Shown piece after piece: positions 1-7,861 of a stretch of 64,000 nucleotides of DNA. A program made the position numbers and the translations under genes. The DNA is from an uncultured Pirellulaceae bacterium (GTDB lineage: Bacteria; Planctomycetota; Planctomycetia; Pirellulales; Pirellulaceae): the NCBI GenBank assembly GCA_905480545.1, contig CAJQQR010000026.1, forward strand, positions 1-64,000, in the 5' to 3' direction. The notes beneath the pieces are model-generated. The model did no database searches, was not told the origin of the DNA, and saw only the letters and a program-made list of their open reading frames with translations. How positions within the stretch are numbered: the stretch's first letter is position 1; the number at the start of each line of letters is the position of its first letter.

Positions 1-370
1 CCTGATCAAAAAACTTCGATTCAAACGGATATTCTTTTTGCCAATTCTTATTCATGTTCAAGAGAAGTCGGTGGTTCGATCATTTCAAATAGAACATGTC
101 GCTCACCATCGAGTCAGAAACGATCGGATTTGGGGCGAGCAGTCTATTGCATCAATTATTTTGACACGTCATTTTATGGCTTTTGAGACGTAACCGGAAC
201 CATAGTCCGTTGAATGATTTGACTGGCAGGTCAAAATAAAACATCGCCGACTGAGCGACGGGCCTGGGGGCCAAAAGCGAAATCCCAATCCACAAAAGGC
301 TATTGAGACGGAATCAAGCACATCCTGCGAACGTTTTGCCAAACAAACTTCTACACAAGAGCTGAAAAAA
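1..370. other. Non-coding lead-in, no gene recognised
   Basis: No convincing reading frame was found in either direction; the only longer minus-strand frame runs into the start of the histidine kinase gene and looks like chance. The stretch holds one perfect inverted repeat, TTTGAC (218-223) and GTCAAA (230-235) with six bases between, about 135 bases before the kinase start. It could be an operator, but nothing identifies a regulator. Confidence 0.5.
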
Positions 371-1756
371 TTGGAATCGAACCCTACTGAATCGAGAATT
401 CCGCGTCGGGAGGTCGTCAATGCCGATTGGCTGATCAAACTGCGTTGGGTGGCTGTAATCGGTCAATTCCTGACGATCTTGACCGTGATCTCGATTTTGA
501 AAATTCAACTCGAAATCTTCTCCCTGGGCATCATTCTGTGTGTCACTGCTGTCTCCAATTTTTTTCTCGAACTTTGGCATCGTCGGTTTTTAAAGAAATT
601 TGCGGAGCACATGGCTTCGACTGAAATCAATTTAGTGCTCGGCTTGGTCATGACCCTTGATCTCCTTTCCTTGACTGCACTCCTCTATTCTTCTGGGGGA
701 CCAACCAATCCGTTCAGTTTTTTCTTTTTCGTCAACCTGTCTTTATCAGCATTTGTTTTGTCGAATCGCTGGTCCTGGTCATTAAATTTGCTCTCTGTTT
801 TCTGTTATTGCGTGTTGCTTTACAGCCACGTTGATGTTCCAGAACTTGATATTGGAGAAGCATTTGAACCGGTAAGAATCTCAGGCGAGCTAACGCTGCC
901 GCAAGCCGGAATGATCATTGCATTTACAACCTGTTCATCGGTAATCGTTTATTTTGTGACACGCCTAACTTCTGAAGTCCGATTCCAAGGCGAAGCCCTT
1001 CGCATCGCCGAAGCGCGTGAGGCCGAAACCCAAAAACTACAGGCATTGGGAACATTGGCCGCAGGAGCCGCACATGAACTTTCGACGCCATTATCTACAA
1101 TTTCAATTGTCATCAATGAGCTTCAACAATTGCTTAAGAATCGGGCGCCATCGGAACCAACCAGCCCAATTCCCAACAACTTAATCTCGAGTGAGATCCT
1201 GTCGGAGGACGTTTCCCTCATAAAAGAAGAGCTTGATCGCTGTCGTGGTATCCTCGCGAAATTGTCTGCCGATGCTGGGCAAAGTGCCGGGGAGCCACTT
1301 CAAAACCTTACGGTCAAAGACTTCGCGGAATACGTGATCTCGGAATTACCCATTACCCTTCAATATGAGATGGAGGTTTCCACGCAAGATTCAACGGAAA
1401 CGCTTACAACGCCATTGACTGCACTTGGATTCGCCATTGGTGGAATCATCAAAAACGCGTTTGATGCTCAAGCTGAATCTGCGGATTCTCGCATCAAGTT
1501 CCACTTGAAAGTTGTAAAAACGAAATTTAAAAAGGAACTTGTCTGGCAGGTTCTCGATCGCGGAACCGGTATGACGCCAAATGTTTTGCGTCGAATGCGA
1601 GAACCGTTTTTTACAACGAAGGAACCGGGCAAAGGCATGGGGCTTGGTGTCTTTTTGGCTTATTCGACAATCGAGCGACTTGGCGGACGATTAAAATATG
1701 AATCCGAACCGGGTGTAGGAACAACCGCAACGATTACGTTACCCATGGAGAACTAA
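371..1756 (+). CDS. RegB/PrrB-like redox-sensing histidine kinase
   Basis: Membrane sensor kinase of 461 residues. About six hydrophobic segments occupy residues 25-200. Between two of them lies GGPTNPF (109-115), which fits the GGxxNPF quinone-binding motif known from RegB of purple bacteria. The H-box follows with His235 in AAHELSTPL, then Cys291 in a DRCRGIL context matching the redox-active cysteine of RegB, then an N-box (Asn362), a G1 box (DRGTG, Asp396) and a G2 box (GKGMGLG, 420-426). The start is a TTG; no in-frame ATG lies nearby. In known systems the kinase reads quinone redox state and phosphorylates RegA. No response regulator is encoded next to it or elsewhere in the window, so the partner is unknown. 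Family assignment is strong because three independent motifs agree; signal and targets are inferred. Confidence 0.88.
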   Translation: MESNPTESRIPRREVVNADWLIKLRWVAVIGQFLTILTVISILKIQLEIFSLGIILCVTAVSNFFLELWHRRFLKKFAEHMASTEINLVLGLVMTLDLLSLTALLYSSGGPTNPFSFFFFVNLSLSAFVLSNRWSWSLNLLSVFCYCVLLYSHVDVPELDIGEAFEPVRISGELTLPQAGMIIAFTTCSSVIVYFVTRLTSEVRFQGEALRIAEAREAETQKLQALGTLAAGAAHELSTPLSTISIVINELQQLLKNRAPSEPTSPIPNNLISSEILSEDVSLIKEELDRCRGILAKLSADAGQSAGEPLQNLTVKDFAEYVISELPITLQYEMEVSTQDSTETLTTPLTALGFAIGGIIKNAFDAQAESADSRIKFHLKVVKTKFKKELVWQVLDRGTGMTPNVLRRMREPFFTTKEPGKGMGLGVFLAYSTIERLGGRLKYESEPGVGTTATITLPMEN

Positions 1757-4117: not shown

Positions 4118-5431
4118 TTGAAAAACTTTCGAATCGTTTTCGGATTTTCATTCTGGATCGTCGTTATCCTTTCGGTCTTACTTGCGCCGATTCTGCTTTC
4201 CGAAAACCCGTGGATTCAATCATTACGAGGCGTTTCACATTATCTGCGTGCCGAACGCCAATACGTGACGGTCAATTTCGATCAGAACCTAAACATGAAG
4301 AGTGGTGACCCCATTTTTGCGGTTACCGAAAACGGCCTAAAACGAATTGGTCAGATTCTGCCAGCAAGTGACAACGCTTCGTTGGTAGCGAAGTTCACCC
4401 CGTCGGCTCGGGTCGTATTCTTCGGTGATTCACCGCCGATCACGAATGACTGTTACCTGACCATCCATCAATCTGAATCCTCGTTTGAATGGGCTTTTCA
4501 GAAACTGTTTCCTACTGCTCGTCGCCAAAAGGTGATCACCGAACTGAAAGCCACCTTTGAACTTCATCAAAAGGAAATTGTCGACGAATTTAGTCCAATC
4601 GTTTTCGATACATTGCAGGACGTCGGAAGAGTCCTACAAGAAGACCTCAGACATGCATTCGCTCAAAACCGCGAAAAACTCGCAGGAATCGCAGCGCGTT
4701 ATCAGGAAGGCTTTGTAGAAAAGCGATTGATTCCATTGGTTAAAGATGAAATTTGGCCAATTGTCGAAGCAAGATCGAAACCAGTACTCAATGAAGTCGG
4801 AAATGAGATTTGGAAGCGGGCATCACTTTGGCGGTTTGGCTGGAGATTGGTCTATGACAAATTTCCGCTCACCGATAGCAACTTGTTGCAAAAAGAATGG
4901 TCGCGTTTTGTAAAGAATGACGCGATCCCGGTACTGGAAGAACACGCTGACGATTTTTATGCGCTGGCCAAAAGCATCATGAAAGAAATCTCTGCCAATC
5001 CCGAAGTCAAACTTGCCGGAAAAGATGGTATCGACCAACTTCTGAAAGATGAAGAAATCAAATCGTTGATCAAGGAAACCTTGTGGAATATCCTTTTTCA
5101 AAACGAGCGCCTCAACCAAGTCTTTCAAGACAACTTTTCCAATACGCGAGCGTTGGCAGCCATTCGATCGACGAGCGACAAATTTGAAATCAAACTTCGA
5201 GAAATTGGTGATCAGATTTTTGGTACTTTCGAGAAAGGAATAACGCGTGAATTCGCTGGAATTCTTCGAAATCAAATCTTGCAACGTGATCAGCGATGGT
5301 TGATCCTACGCTACAAGGACAATTCCATCAAAATTGAAAACCGTTTCGATTTGGCGATCGAGATTGAAGGAAACTTCGTCCGGGAGAATGATCTCATTCC
5401 AGAATTCGTCATGGCGGAGGTCAACCCATGA
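4118..5431 (+). CDS. Membrane-anchored MCE-like component of Mla-type operon
   Basis: A 437-residue protein with one N-terminal membrane segment (about 7-28). The next 100 residues contain a stretch that resembles a divergent MCE/MlaD core: NMKSGDPIF, then ENGLKRIGQI, like the GdpV...G..iGkV pattern of that family. The rest (about 130-400) is a long, charged, mostly helical region, much longer than in MlaD, which could form a periplasmic needle or tunnel. Its stop overlaps the start of the ATPase-permease gene by four bases (ATGA), so the two are translationally coupled. That strongly suggests it is the substrate-binding or bridging part of the same lipid transporter. Translation starts at TTG; an in-frame stop 18 bases upstream leaves no earlier choice. 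The MCE assignment is inference from weak similarity and context. Confidence 0.6.
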   Translation: MKNFRIVFGFSFWIVVILSVLLAPILLSENPWIQSLRGVSHYLRAERQYVTVNFDQNLNMKSGDPIFAVTENGLKRIGQILPASDNASLVAKFTPSARVVFFGDSPPITNDCYLTIHQSESSFEWAFQKLFPTARRQKVITELKATFELHQKEIVDEFSPIVFDTLQDVGRVLQEDLRHAFAQNREKLAGIAARYQEGFVEKRLIPLVKDEIWPIVEARSKPVLNEVGNEIWKRASLWRFGWRLVYDKFPLTDSNLLQKEWSRFVKNDAIPVLEEHADDFYALAKSIMKEISANPEVKLAGKDGIDQLLKDEEIKSLIKETLWNILFQNERLNQVFQDNFSNTRALAAIRSTSDKFEIKLREIGDQIFGTFEKGITREFAGILRNQILQRDQRWLILRYKDNSIKIENRFDLAIEIEGNFVRENDLIPEFVMAEVNP

Positions 5432-7035
5432 TCGCATCAGAGGCGAATTCAAGCGAGGACATGTCTGAAGACCTTCAGGTCAAGATTGAAAATCTAGATT
5501 TAATTGCAGGAAACCGCACCCTGCTCGATAGTGCTACCGCCAGATTCGGACGCGGCAAAATCACTTTGATTGTCGGCCCAAGTGGTGTGGGAAAATCGCT
5601 TCTGCTGAAAGTCCTTTCCGGGATATTGCCTCGGGAAAAAGATGGAATCCGGTATAGCGGACAAATTAAAGTCGACGGAATCGATACCTGTGCGGGCAAC
5701 TCAGGTTTTGTTTTTCAAAATTTCGCGCTCTTTGACGAATTTTCGCCTACCGCAAACGTTCGTTTCGCGATTTCGCATCGGTCAAGCAATTCGATCAAAA
5801 CCCCAAAAGCATCTCGTCTACTAAACGACCTAAACGTTCCGACGCATGTGCCAACTTCACGATTGAGCGGTGGACAGCGTCAGCGGTTGGCGATCGCCCG
5901 CGCGTTGTCTTACGGAAAAGAAACCATTTTCTTTGACGAACCAACTGCTGGTTTGGACATTGGAACGGCAAACAAGGTCGCAGAGTTGATCGGTGACACA
6001 GCGCGTAATCACAACACAACGGCCATTGTTGTTACACATGATTATCAAGCGTTAGTTCCTATCGCGGACGAAATCTACTTCCTGGACCCAATTACCAAGT
6101 CATTGGACTTGGTCCCCAAGGAAAAATGGAGCGATCTTCCAGAGCGATTGCAAACCTTGTCCGCTACGAGTTCACAAGCCGAAGACGAGCAGGCCAAAGA
6201 GAAGCAGGGAATCGTCAATTTTTCGCTTTGCAAATTAAAACAATTCGCAATCGGCACAACCAAGTTCATTGAAGAAGCGGTTTTGTTGCCGGTTCGTTTG
6301 ATTCCGATTTGGAAAAGCCCGATTTGGGGTTTGCGATTCTTCTTCCACTTTTTCAATTTGATTACTGGGATCACCGCGATGATCTACCTGATCATTGCGG
6401 GATTGATTCTTGGATTCGTGACGACTTTCTTCGCCTTCGAATACCTGCCGTTTCGTCGATTCAGTTTGCCATTGATCCGGGAAGACATCCTTGCAGCAGT
6501 GGGCTTTGGGCTATACCGAATCGTAATTCCCGTGATTGGTACGGTGCTGATTGCAGCTCGATGTGGCAGCGCAGTCGCAGCAGATGTTGGATCCAAGGAA
6601 TACGGTCGACAGCTGGATGCGATGAGATCGTTGAACGCATCACCGAAAAAGTATCTTTTGACTAATATTTTGTACTCGTTTTTGATTGGTGCCCCGCTAC
6701 TGATTTACCTTTCGTTTCAAGCCGCTCGATGGATCAGTCTTGTTGTGTTCCTGAGCATCTTCCCCAATGAAAGTGCCGATTTTTGGCACCAGTATTTCCA
6801 TCGGCAACTCGAAATTTCGGGTAGTTTTTTTTACGTGGGTACGGATTGGGTTCTGTTTAAAGTCTTGATCTGCGGTATTGGGATCGGAGCAATCAGTTAC
6901 TCAATTGGTGCTCAATCTAAGCTTTCCTCCAACGACGTTAGCAATTCGGTAACTCGGACAACTCTTTACTCAACGATCTTTGTTCTGGCGGTTCATTTTG
7001 TTTTCGCCTTTAGTGAATTCAGCCGACTTGAATAG
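5428..7035 (+). CDS. Fused Mla-type lipid ABC transporter (MlaF ATPase + MlaE permease)
   Basis: One 535-residue chain combines two proteins normally made separately. Residues 17-240 are an ABC ATPase: Walker A GPSGVGKS (50-57), signature LSGGQ (146-150), Walker B ending FFDEPTAGLD (about 168-177) and switch His204. A polar linker (about 240-280) leads to a permease domain with several membrane segments. This carries the MlaE hallmark around residues 397-425: GSAVAADVGS, then an EYGRQLDAMRSLN segment, then SPKKYLL. Mla systems move phospholipids between inner and outer membrane. The gene overlaps its MCE-like partner by four bases. The ATG at 5428 is preferred over the one at 5461 because of that overlap. 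Domain identities are firm; transport direction and substrate are inferred from the family. Confidence 0.85.
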   Translation: MIASEANSSEDMSEDLQVKIENLDLIAGNRTLLDSATARFGRGKITLIVGPSGVGKSLLLKVLSGILPREKDGIRYSGQIKVDGIDTCAGNSGFVFQNFALFDEFSPTANVRFAISHRSSNSIKTPKASRLLNDLNVPTHVPTSRLSGGQRQRLAIARALSYGKETIFFDEPTAGLDIGTANKVAELIGDTARNHNTTAIVVTHDYQALVPIADEIYFLDPITKSLDLVPKEKWSDLPERLQTLSATSSQAEDEQAKEKQGIVNFSLCKLKQFAIGTTKFIEEAVLLPVRLIPIWKSPIWGLRFFFHFFNLITGITAMIYLIIAGLILGFVTTFFAFEYLPFRRFSLPLIREDILAAVGFGLYRIVIPVIGTVLIAARCGSAVAADVGSKEYGRQLDAMRSLNASPKKYLLTNILYSFLIGAPLLIYLSFQAARWISLVVFLSIFPNESADFWHQYFHRQLEISGSFFYVGTDWVLFKVLICGIGIGAISYSIGAQSKLSSNDVSNSVTRTTLYSTIFVLAVHFVFAFSEFSRLE

Positions 7036-7171: not shown

Positions 7172-7861
7172 ATGGCTAACAACGAAGAATCACATGGCGA
7201 TCCGGTCAATGAAGTTCGTTCGCTGAGCTCAGTTCCCAAAGCCGTAGTAGGACGATTGAGTCTCTATTTGCGGGAGTTGCAAAATTTGTTACGGCAAGGA
7301 AATGACACGGTCAGTTCGACCAAACTAGGAAAGGCACTTGGCTTTTCTGATGCTCAAGTCCGAAAAGACCTCGCCTATTTTGGCCAATTTGGATATCCAG
7401 GGATCGGCTATCGGTGTGAAGAATTGGTGGCCGAAATCAAAAAAATCATGGGAACGGATCGCCATTGGGCGGTGGCATTGATTGGCTGCGGAAACTTGGG
7501 ACGAGCGTTGTTAGGCTACCGCGGATTCTTCCAGAAAGGGTTTAAAATCGCGGCAGCATTTGACGTGGATCCCTCGAAAACGGTTGGCCAATTTGAGGGC
7601 ATTCCTGTCTACGATATTGAAGAACTGGGAACGATTGCGAAGCAACATCAAATCCGACTTGCTATTCTTGCTGTTCCTGCCGCAGCAGCGAATCTTGTTG
7701 CTGAAAAGGTCGCAGCAGCAGGCATCACTGGAATCATGAACTTCGCGCCGGTAACTCTGAATTCAATTGAAGGGGTTAGCGCTGTTGGAGTCGATCTTGC
7801 GATTGAGCTTGAGCAACTTTGCTATTCTGTCGTCAAATCAAATGATAACAATTTGTCGTAA
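7172..7861 (+). CDS. rex: Redox-sensing transcriptional repressor Rex
   Basis: A 229-residue Rex protein. Residues about 22-80 form the winged helix domain, with the typical SDAQVRKDLAYFGQFG segment. A Rossmann NAD(H)-binding domain follows with GCGNLGRAL (105-113), and the C-terminal helix used in dimer exchange is present. Rex represses respiratory and fermentation genes until a rising NADH/NAD+ ratio releases it from DNA. No clear TTGTGAA-N4-TTCACAA operator was found next to the gene, so its targets lie elsewhere or use a divergent site. It follows the lipid transport operon after 136 bases and is probably transcribed on its own. Length and all motifs are normal for the family. Confidence 0.95.
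   Translation: MANNEESHGDPVNEVRSLSSVPKAVVGRLSLYLRELQNLLRQGNDTVSSTKLGKALGFSDAQVRKDLAYFGQFGYPGIGYRCEELVAEIKKIMGTDRHWAVALIGCGNLGRALLGYRGFFQKGFKIAAAFDVDPSKTVGQFEGIPVYDIEELGTIAKQHQIRLAILAVPAAAANLVAEKVAAAGITGIMNFAPVTLNSIEGVSAVGVDLAIELEQLCYSVVKSNDNNLS

Follow-up and report, generated by a model that had tools for sequence, protein, structure and literature searches.

The window, a stretch of 64,000 nucleotides from an uncultured Pirellulaceae bacterium (contig CAJQQR010000026.1), carries two overlapping genes of an apparent Mla-type transporter on the forward strand. The downstream gene, here called the fusion, encodes the ATP-binding cassette (ABC) ATPase MlaF and the permease MlaE in one chain, and the upstream gene encodes a protein with a long helical part, here called the partner. 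The features of both are collected in Table 1. The four bases shared by the stop of one gene and the start of the other suggest that the two are translationally coupled, and a 4-base overlap is also found in 21 of 35 relatives, with starts chosen mechanically.

Table 1. Features of the partner and fusion genes, in positions of the window
Feature	Position	Strand	Basis or remarks
Partner coding sequence, 437 amino acids, apparent MCE protein with a putative inserted helical hairpin	4118..5431	+	TTG start
N-terminal hydrophobic helix of the partner, residues 2-26, predicted single inner-membrane anchor	4121..4195	+	AlphaFold helix, hydropathy
MCE barrel strands 1-5 of the partner, residues 48-118 (predicted)	4259..4471	+	AlphaFold secondary structure, VIA-align to LetB/MlaD, hhalign
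Helical insertion of the partner at the beta5-beta6 (pore-lining loop) position, residues 120-392	4475..5293	+	AlphaFold models, VIA-align, fixed length, co-variation
Most conserved, aromatic-rich segment of the partner, residues 231-250, IWKRASLWRFGWRLVYDKFP	4808..4867	+	Beside the hairpin fold; highest information, invariant columns
C-terminal strands of the partner completing the MCE barrel in the models, beta6 393-399 and beta7 415-420	5294..5377	+	AlphaFold, VIA-align; repeated in homologue L037
Stop/start overlap ATGA of partner and fusion genes	5428..5431	+	Four bases
Fused MlaF-MlaE coding sequence, 535 amino acids	5428..7035	+	ATG start
ABC ATPase domain of the fusion, residues 17-219	5476..6084	+	Pfam; motifs that we take to be Walker A (GPSGVGKS), signature (LSGGQ), Walker B (FFDEP) and H-loop (H204) present
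MlaE permease domain of the fusion, residues 313-527	6364..7008	+	PF02405 over cut-off

That ATPase and permease share one chain, as an earlier sequence-only reading of this DNA had proposed, is borne out by a single open frame that matches the Pfam family ABC_tran over residues 36-174 (8.7e-22) and then MlaE (1.1e-22), the latter with 81-83 bits against a curated PF02405 cut-off of 22.5. The fusion recurs at 35 of 44 loci of relatives, in each case directly downstream of the partner, and two of the remaining nine loci run out of contig. The key residues of the ATPase motifs are invariant across 32 aligned fusions. The top PDB rows for the ATPase (6ic4_I, 6z5u_K and 7d06_B) are each named only "ABC transporter ATP-binding protein", and the entries 6z5u and 7d06 are titled MlaBDEF/MlaFEDB. 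With its motifs intact and its closest solved relatives among Mla ATPases, the domain is thus an MlaF-type ABC ATPase. In one relative (L041) a stop interrupts the fused gene at 260 residues with similarity continuing beyond it, perhaps a sequencing error or a pseudogene, and in two others (L045 and L046) the fused frame is cut by the contig end.

The partner cannot be placed by sequence libraries alone, given that searches of Pfam, NCBIfam and the PDB sequences gave nothing above chance. The window protein matches no Pfam family at E<=10, and none of 14 members of the partner family that were examined has PF02470 among its matches. The faint MCE-like core that had been read in this protein, to which the family libraries are blind, is nonetheless detected by profile-profile comparison: the partner profile scores 33.3 (probability 79) in hhalign against 31 planctomycete MCE domains, while the best of 146 column shuffles scores 14.75 and the reversed control 10.5.

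The fold was predicted with AlphaFold for the window partner as a single chain, from 43 sequences, with a mean predicted local distance difference test (pLDDT) of 85.8 and a predicted template modelling score (pTM) of 0.55. The model consists, in order, of the membrane helix, for which K2 and R5 at its N end suggest an N-in orientation, five strands, helices over residues 123-386, and two further strands (limits in Table 1). The model of L037, a homologue with 29% identity, has the same order of elements, with beta6 at 386-392 and beta7 at 402-406 (pLDDT 89.1, pTM 0.59). VIA-align was run on the Foldseek top 1000 for each model. For the window model the best 16 rows are all MCE proteins (LetB, MlaD and Mce1; Z 8.3-9.2), with PqiB at rank 19. 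These rows include 6v0c (Z 9.2, root-mean-square deviation (rmsd) 2.4 A over 82 residues, model range 47..421) and MlaD 5uw8_C (Z 9.1, rmsd 3.1 A over 91 of 101, range 44..421). For L037 LetB/YebT fill the first 8 rows (Z 8.5-9.8, rmsd 2.1-2.9 A over 82-99 residues, range 46-48..407-410). Both predicted models therefore contain a seven-stranded MCE barrel (top rows LetB/MlaD, Z 9.1-9.8, rmsd 2.1-3.1 A, 82-99 residues). The fact that in the top rows the range from residue ~46 to ~421 (~409 in L037) aligns to one contiguous MCE domain of ~100 residues means that the C-terminal strands occupy the places of the last MCE strands, and the helical stretch is for this reason an insertion and not a tail. 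The sequence-only reading, which gave about 270 residues of helix, had no means of seeing that the last two barrel strands are C-terminal. From these models, the partner appears to be an MCE protein with a split barrel, in which strands 1-5 are N-terminal and strands 6-7 are C-terminal.

The insertion falls on the loop that lines the pore of known MCE proteins, where 5-27 residues are found between beta5 and beta6 (PMC8420772). In 38 of 43 aligned partners 273 residues separate the beta5 and beta6 segments, with the position taken from the models. The insertion has a core (residues 123-386 of the window partner) whose length is 264 in 96 of 131 non-redundant homologues and 263-265 in 124 of them; these 131 are what remains of 194 partner sequences after a 90% filter, with an effective number of sequences of 117. 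In the first set of 43 partners, the N-terminal barrel (69-104) and the C-terminal tail (42-109) vary freely in length.

Mean-field co-variation over the 131 homologues gives an antiparallel band between the limbs 123-239 and 254-386, centred on i+j=500, which is matched by 1 of 400 block-shuffled nulls; the best parallel band, taken as a control, is matched by 83 of 400. Of the 31 pairs at or above 4 standard deviations, 13 lie at i+j 493-511, where 4.4 are expected. Given that the band 495-511 was picked after the top pairs were known, the maximum over all bands was also used, and the observed value of 9.95 exceeds the null maximum of 7.02 in 500 permutations; the figure of 1 in 400 block-shuffled nulls likewise refers to such a maximum. 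A band at this position places the fold of the hairpin at residue ~250, and the sequence co-variation therefore supports an antiparallel hairpin that turns there, in contacts that may lie within or between subunits, to which difference the method is blind. Residues 231-250, beside the turn, form the two blocks of highest mean information in the partner (3.43 and 3.39 bits), and the next conserved block, residues 381-390, lies just before beta6. The two long helices are amphipathic (period 3.78-3.98), more so than any of 300 shuffles. In the first limb ~102 residues are helical, which by arithmetic at 0.15 nm per residue corresponds to about 15 nm.

Partner and fusion also travel together in genomes. 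Of 60 relatives, 14 have the partner, and among 20 genomes searched with the fusion, a high-identity fusion is present in all 14 with the partner (in pieces in three of them, G014, G045 and G046) and in none of the 6 without it. At the level of the order, the partner occurs in 13 of 146 genomes and a high-scoring fused permease (353-448 bits, the next best at 71.5) in the identical 13. In 6 of these 13 the two genes lie on different contigs, so the link between them is more than one of neighbourhood. Of 392 genomes of the phylum, 41 have the partner and 38 a fused permease that scores strongly, at 245 bits or more; 37 genomes have both. The partner lacks a strong fusion in G313, G338 and G491 (79-84% complete), the adjacent fusion of G362 reaches only 153 bits, and that of G308 begins right at the end of a contig. 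Within the family to which the window belongs, the partner is present in 113 of 241 genomes. The homologues of the partner from named records, 44 in number, bear names of planctomycetes or Pirellulales, so far as these were recognised, and include the cultured Rubripirellula obstinata and Rhodopirellula maiorica. Partner and fusion co-occur almost perfectly, even when unlinked, which points to a functional link. Clustering of open reading frames around 45 loci revealed no third gene family at a fixed place beside the two; the next commonest family occurs at 11 of 45, antisense and overlapping frames of the two genes set aside. The proposal that a fused MlaFE half-transporter with an MCE-type partner is a distinct planctomycetal design is supported by the fold, the adjacency and this co-occurrence. 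A partner with a fold foreign to MCE and not kept beside the fusion would have spoken against it, but the predicted fold is MCE and the partner stands directly upstream at those 35 loci.

The fused system is not the only one of its kind in these genomes. Contig C291 of the window genome holds a classical split MlaE, MlaF and MlaD, in that order, and an ordinary low-scoring MlaE is also present in 12 of the 13 genomes of the order that have the fusion, indicating that the fused system is a second one alongside a classical one. The MlaD frame on C291 (L059) has only 206 amino acids, compared with about 360-490 in one frame in relatives; an assembly frameshift is likely, because the sequence seems to resume in another frame near L059:1980, after an A/G run. 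Neither MlaC (PF05494) nor MlaA (PF04333) is matched in any of four genomes searched, the window's included, and both are matched in the E. coli control, so that the six-component Mla pathway is found in none of the four. The absence of both from the neighbourhood, already remarked from the sequence, thus extends to whole assemblies, although that of the window genome is 88% complete and the absence there is not proof.

More divergent fusions occur in 31 further genomes of the phylum, among the matches listed, with fused permeases of 83-175 bits in open frames over 500 residues. Twenty regions were examined, 19 with such second-tier fusions and that of G308. In L098, L101, L117, L106, L107, L111, L112 and L113 the upstream gene encodes a membrane helix, MCE-like strands, a long helix and a hydrophobic C-terminal strand. 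The residues between the strand motifs, whose positions were chosen by eye, number 219 in L098, 218 in L101 and L117, 258 in L106, 308 in L107 and 249 in each of L111, L112 and L113; the insertion lengths of about 218, 249, 258 or 308 are near-constant within the two families sampled three times. In four of the 20 regions (L108, L109, L114 and L115) the gene directly upstream of the fused MlaFE encodes a classical double-MCE protein (MCE profile E 6.5e-17 to 1.9e-22) that has one more, unassigned domain at its C-terminus. A different partner, of 559-591 amino acids with one mid-chain hydrophobic stretch, is encoded upstream in L104 and L105. In the six regions L099, L100, L102, L103, L110 and L116 no such upstream gene was seen, or there is too little room for it. 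The partner slot of fused MlaFE is thus usually, not always, taken by an MCE protein. In a tree of MlaE domains the fusions with a classical double-MCE partner adjoin the split MlaE group (support 0.89), a hint that the fusion is older than the insertion, which is not relied on here because the outgroup is partial and the neighbouring support is 0.66. Upstream of the divergent operon, L098, L101, L103 and L117 have a gene that by eye resembles an E-like stalk subunit of a V-type ATPase.

We propose, with a probability of roughly 0.64, that the two genes encode a self-contained envelope lipid transporter with a periplasmic needle grown from an MCE pore loop. The fused protein would be a half-transporter, ATPase then permease, that dimerises to a 2+2 ABC core, and the partner would be anchored in the inner membrane with its MCE ring on the periplasmic face of that core. 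The pore-lining loop would be replaced by a hairpin of ~270 residues that runs out along two helices of ~50 residues (~15 nm), turns at ~250 beside the conserved aromatic WRFGWRxxYD segment, and returns into the same barrel. MCE proteins with solved assemblies are hexamers; in such an assembly, six hairpins would rise from the pore rim and form a tunnel or groove for lipids. At the outer membrane the hairpins would make contact through their aromatic tip. Lipids would travel between the limbs, entering or leaving the MlaE cavity as ATP is hydrolysed, in a traffic that would need neither MlaA nor MlaC. The hexameric ring, the span, the position of the tip, the lipid substrate and the direction are put forward by analogy with MlaFEDB and Mce1 (PMC7790496 and PMC9882608). 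For the complete arrangement, in which six pore loops expanded into 15-nm hairpins give a needle whose twelve limbs run on from the ring pore, with a homodimer of fused MlaFE as its motor, an aromatic outer-membrane gate at its end and a classical long-MlaD system working beside it, we see the chances as evenly balanced.

The proposed transporter shares with MlaFED(B) of E. coli, P. aeruginosa and A. baumannii the MlaF-type ATPase, the MlaE permease and an MCE partner with one N-terminal membrane helix. It differs from them in the fusion of ATPase and permease, in that the search of the genome turned up neither MlaA nor MlaC and that the operon shows no MlaB, and in a partner outside PF02470 with an insertion of ~270 residues, where the pore loop of MlaD has 6 (PMC8420772). 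The transenvelope MlaD of Veillonella parvula and the long MlaDs of Planctomycetes-Verrucomicrobia-Chlamydiae (PVC) bacteria, as described in PMC10665443, are likewise MCE proteins with a long helical part that occur without MlaA or MlaC, and the Veillonella protein suggests there that such a bridge can work. However, the helices of those proteins come after the MCE domain, and separate genes encode MlaE and MlaF there, whereas here the helices interrupt the domain; neither partner model has a helical extension C-terminal to a complete MCE domain followed by a beta-barrel, and no C-terminal membrane barrel is predicted in them. The survey in the same source, which relied on PF02470, describes MlaDs without a barrel from PVC bacteria; since the partner is not matched by PF02470, such partners would be missed by it. 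The Mce1 transporter of mycobacteria (PMC9882608) also sets an MCE ring with a long helical needle on an ABC core, but as a heterohexamer, with a C-terminal needle of one helix chain per subunit and separate YrbE and MceG. LetB and PqiB of E. coli, the former among the best structural matches of the partner barrel, have pore-lining loops that help to build the tunnel, but these loops have 7-27 residues, the MCE domains are stacked, and the inner-membrane partners LetA and PqiA are not ABC proteins. ABCG-type half-transporters also have ATPase then permease in one dimerising chain; those are without an MCE partner, whereas the permease here is of the MlaE family. No description of a fused MlaFE or of a helical insertion in an MCE pore loop was recognised in the literature search.

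Several observations weigh against this interpretation. The sequence match of the partner to MCE domains spans only strands 1-3 (41 columns) and not the C-terminal strands, profile slices past residue 81 being at background. Foldseek itself gives no match at E<=0.001 for either partner model, and its list for L037 is headed by coiled coils. The pTM of both models is modest, which makes the placement of the helices relative to the barrel uncertain, and there is no relative of the partner with a solved structure. For residues 45-120, the windows with the strongest co-variation pairs lie near 313 and 343 and not in the C-terminal strands; by mean score the windows 398-403 and 412-416 lead, a lead that gaps may cause. 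For the upstream genes of L104 and L105 no similarity to MCE was detected. The chief danger lies in monomer prediction, which may fold the C-terminal strands back wrongly. The co-variation of the hairpin argues against such an error, short of proving closure of the barrel, and it shares part of its sequences with the AlphaFold models, so that the two are not fully independent.

If the fold-back were such an artefact, the helices would run outward only, as in Mce1 or the Veillonella MlaD, leaving a ring without strands 6-7 and a small distal barrel of the C-terminal strands at the outer membrane. Barrel-less long MlaDs can indeed end in a six-stranded mini-barrel with one strand per subunit (PMC10665443), and monomer models with a pTM of 0.55-0.59 are unable to show a hexamer. 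We nonetheless regard this arrangement as unlikely, given that the C-terminal strands close the MCE barrel in both models, with an rmsd of 2.1-3.1 A to LetB/MlaD in the best rows, and that an antiparallel band centred on residue 250 requires the limbs to be neighbours, whether in one subunit or across two. The limbs could also meet between subunits if each hairpin returned to the neighbouring one, where strands 6-7 would complete the next MCE barrel. There is precedent for such an exchange in M. tuberculosis Mce4A, whose MCE domain gave crystals in which the beta6-beta7 part is swapped between monomers (PMC8420772), and co-variation cannot tell the two kinds of contact apart; the monomer models are nevertheless self-closed and nothing direct favours the swap, which makes it improbable. 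Equally hard to favour is a role of the hairpins as a scaffold or regulatory arm on an ordinary MCE/MlaE transporter, contacting for instance peptidoglycan or an outer-membrane protein, with lipids leaving laterally. The conservation peaks at the tip and just before beta6 are as in a docking arm, and lipid contact of the hairpins is a prediction only, but the fixed length and the amphipathicity of the helices fit packed helices that line a shared structure, as in the needle grown from the pore loop.

Two neighbours of the operon belong to other families. On the other strand, two genes upstream, positions 1841-2839 encode a flotillin-like FloA (PF12127, 1.1e-127), a membrane-domain protein. Just downstream, on the forward strand, positions 7172-7861 encode a Rex-like regulator with DNA-binding and coenzyme A-binding parts, which by the clustering of open reading frames is not a conserved neighbour.

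The means by which lipids traverse the periplasm are not settled, and the known MCE tunnels are built of stacked rings or of C-terminal helices. If true, a needle that develops out of the pore loop would be an independent design for MCE tunnels. Given that it comprises two genes and two chains, the system is compact, and its reconstitution with few parts is possible. The fused system occurs across a phylum with an unusual envelope.

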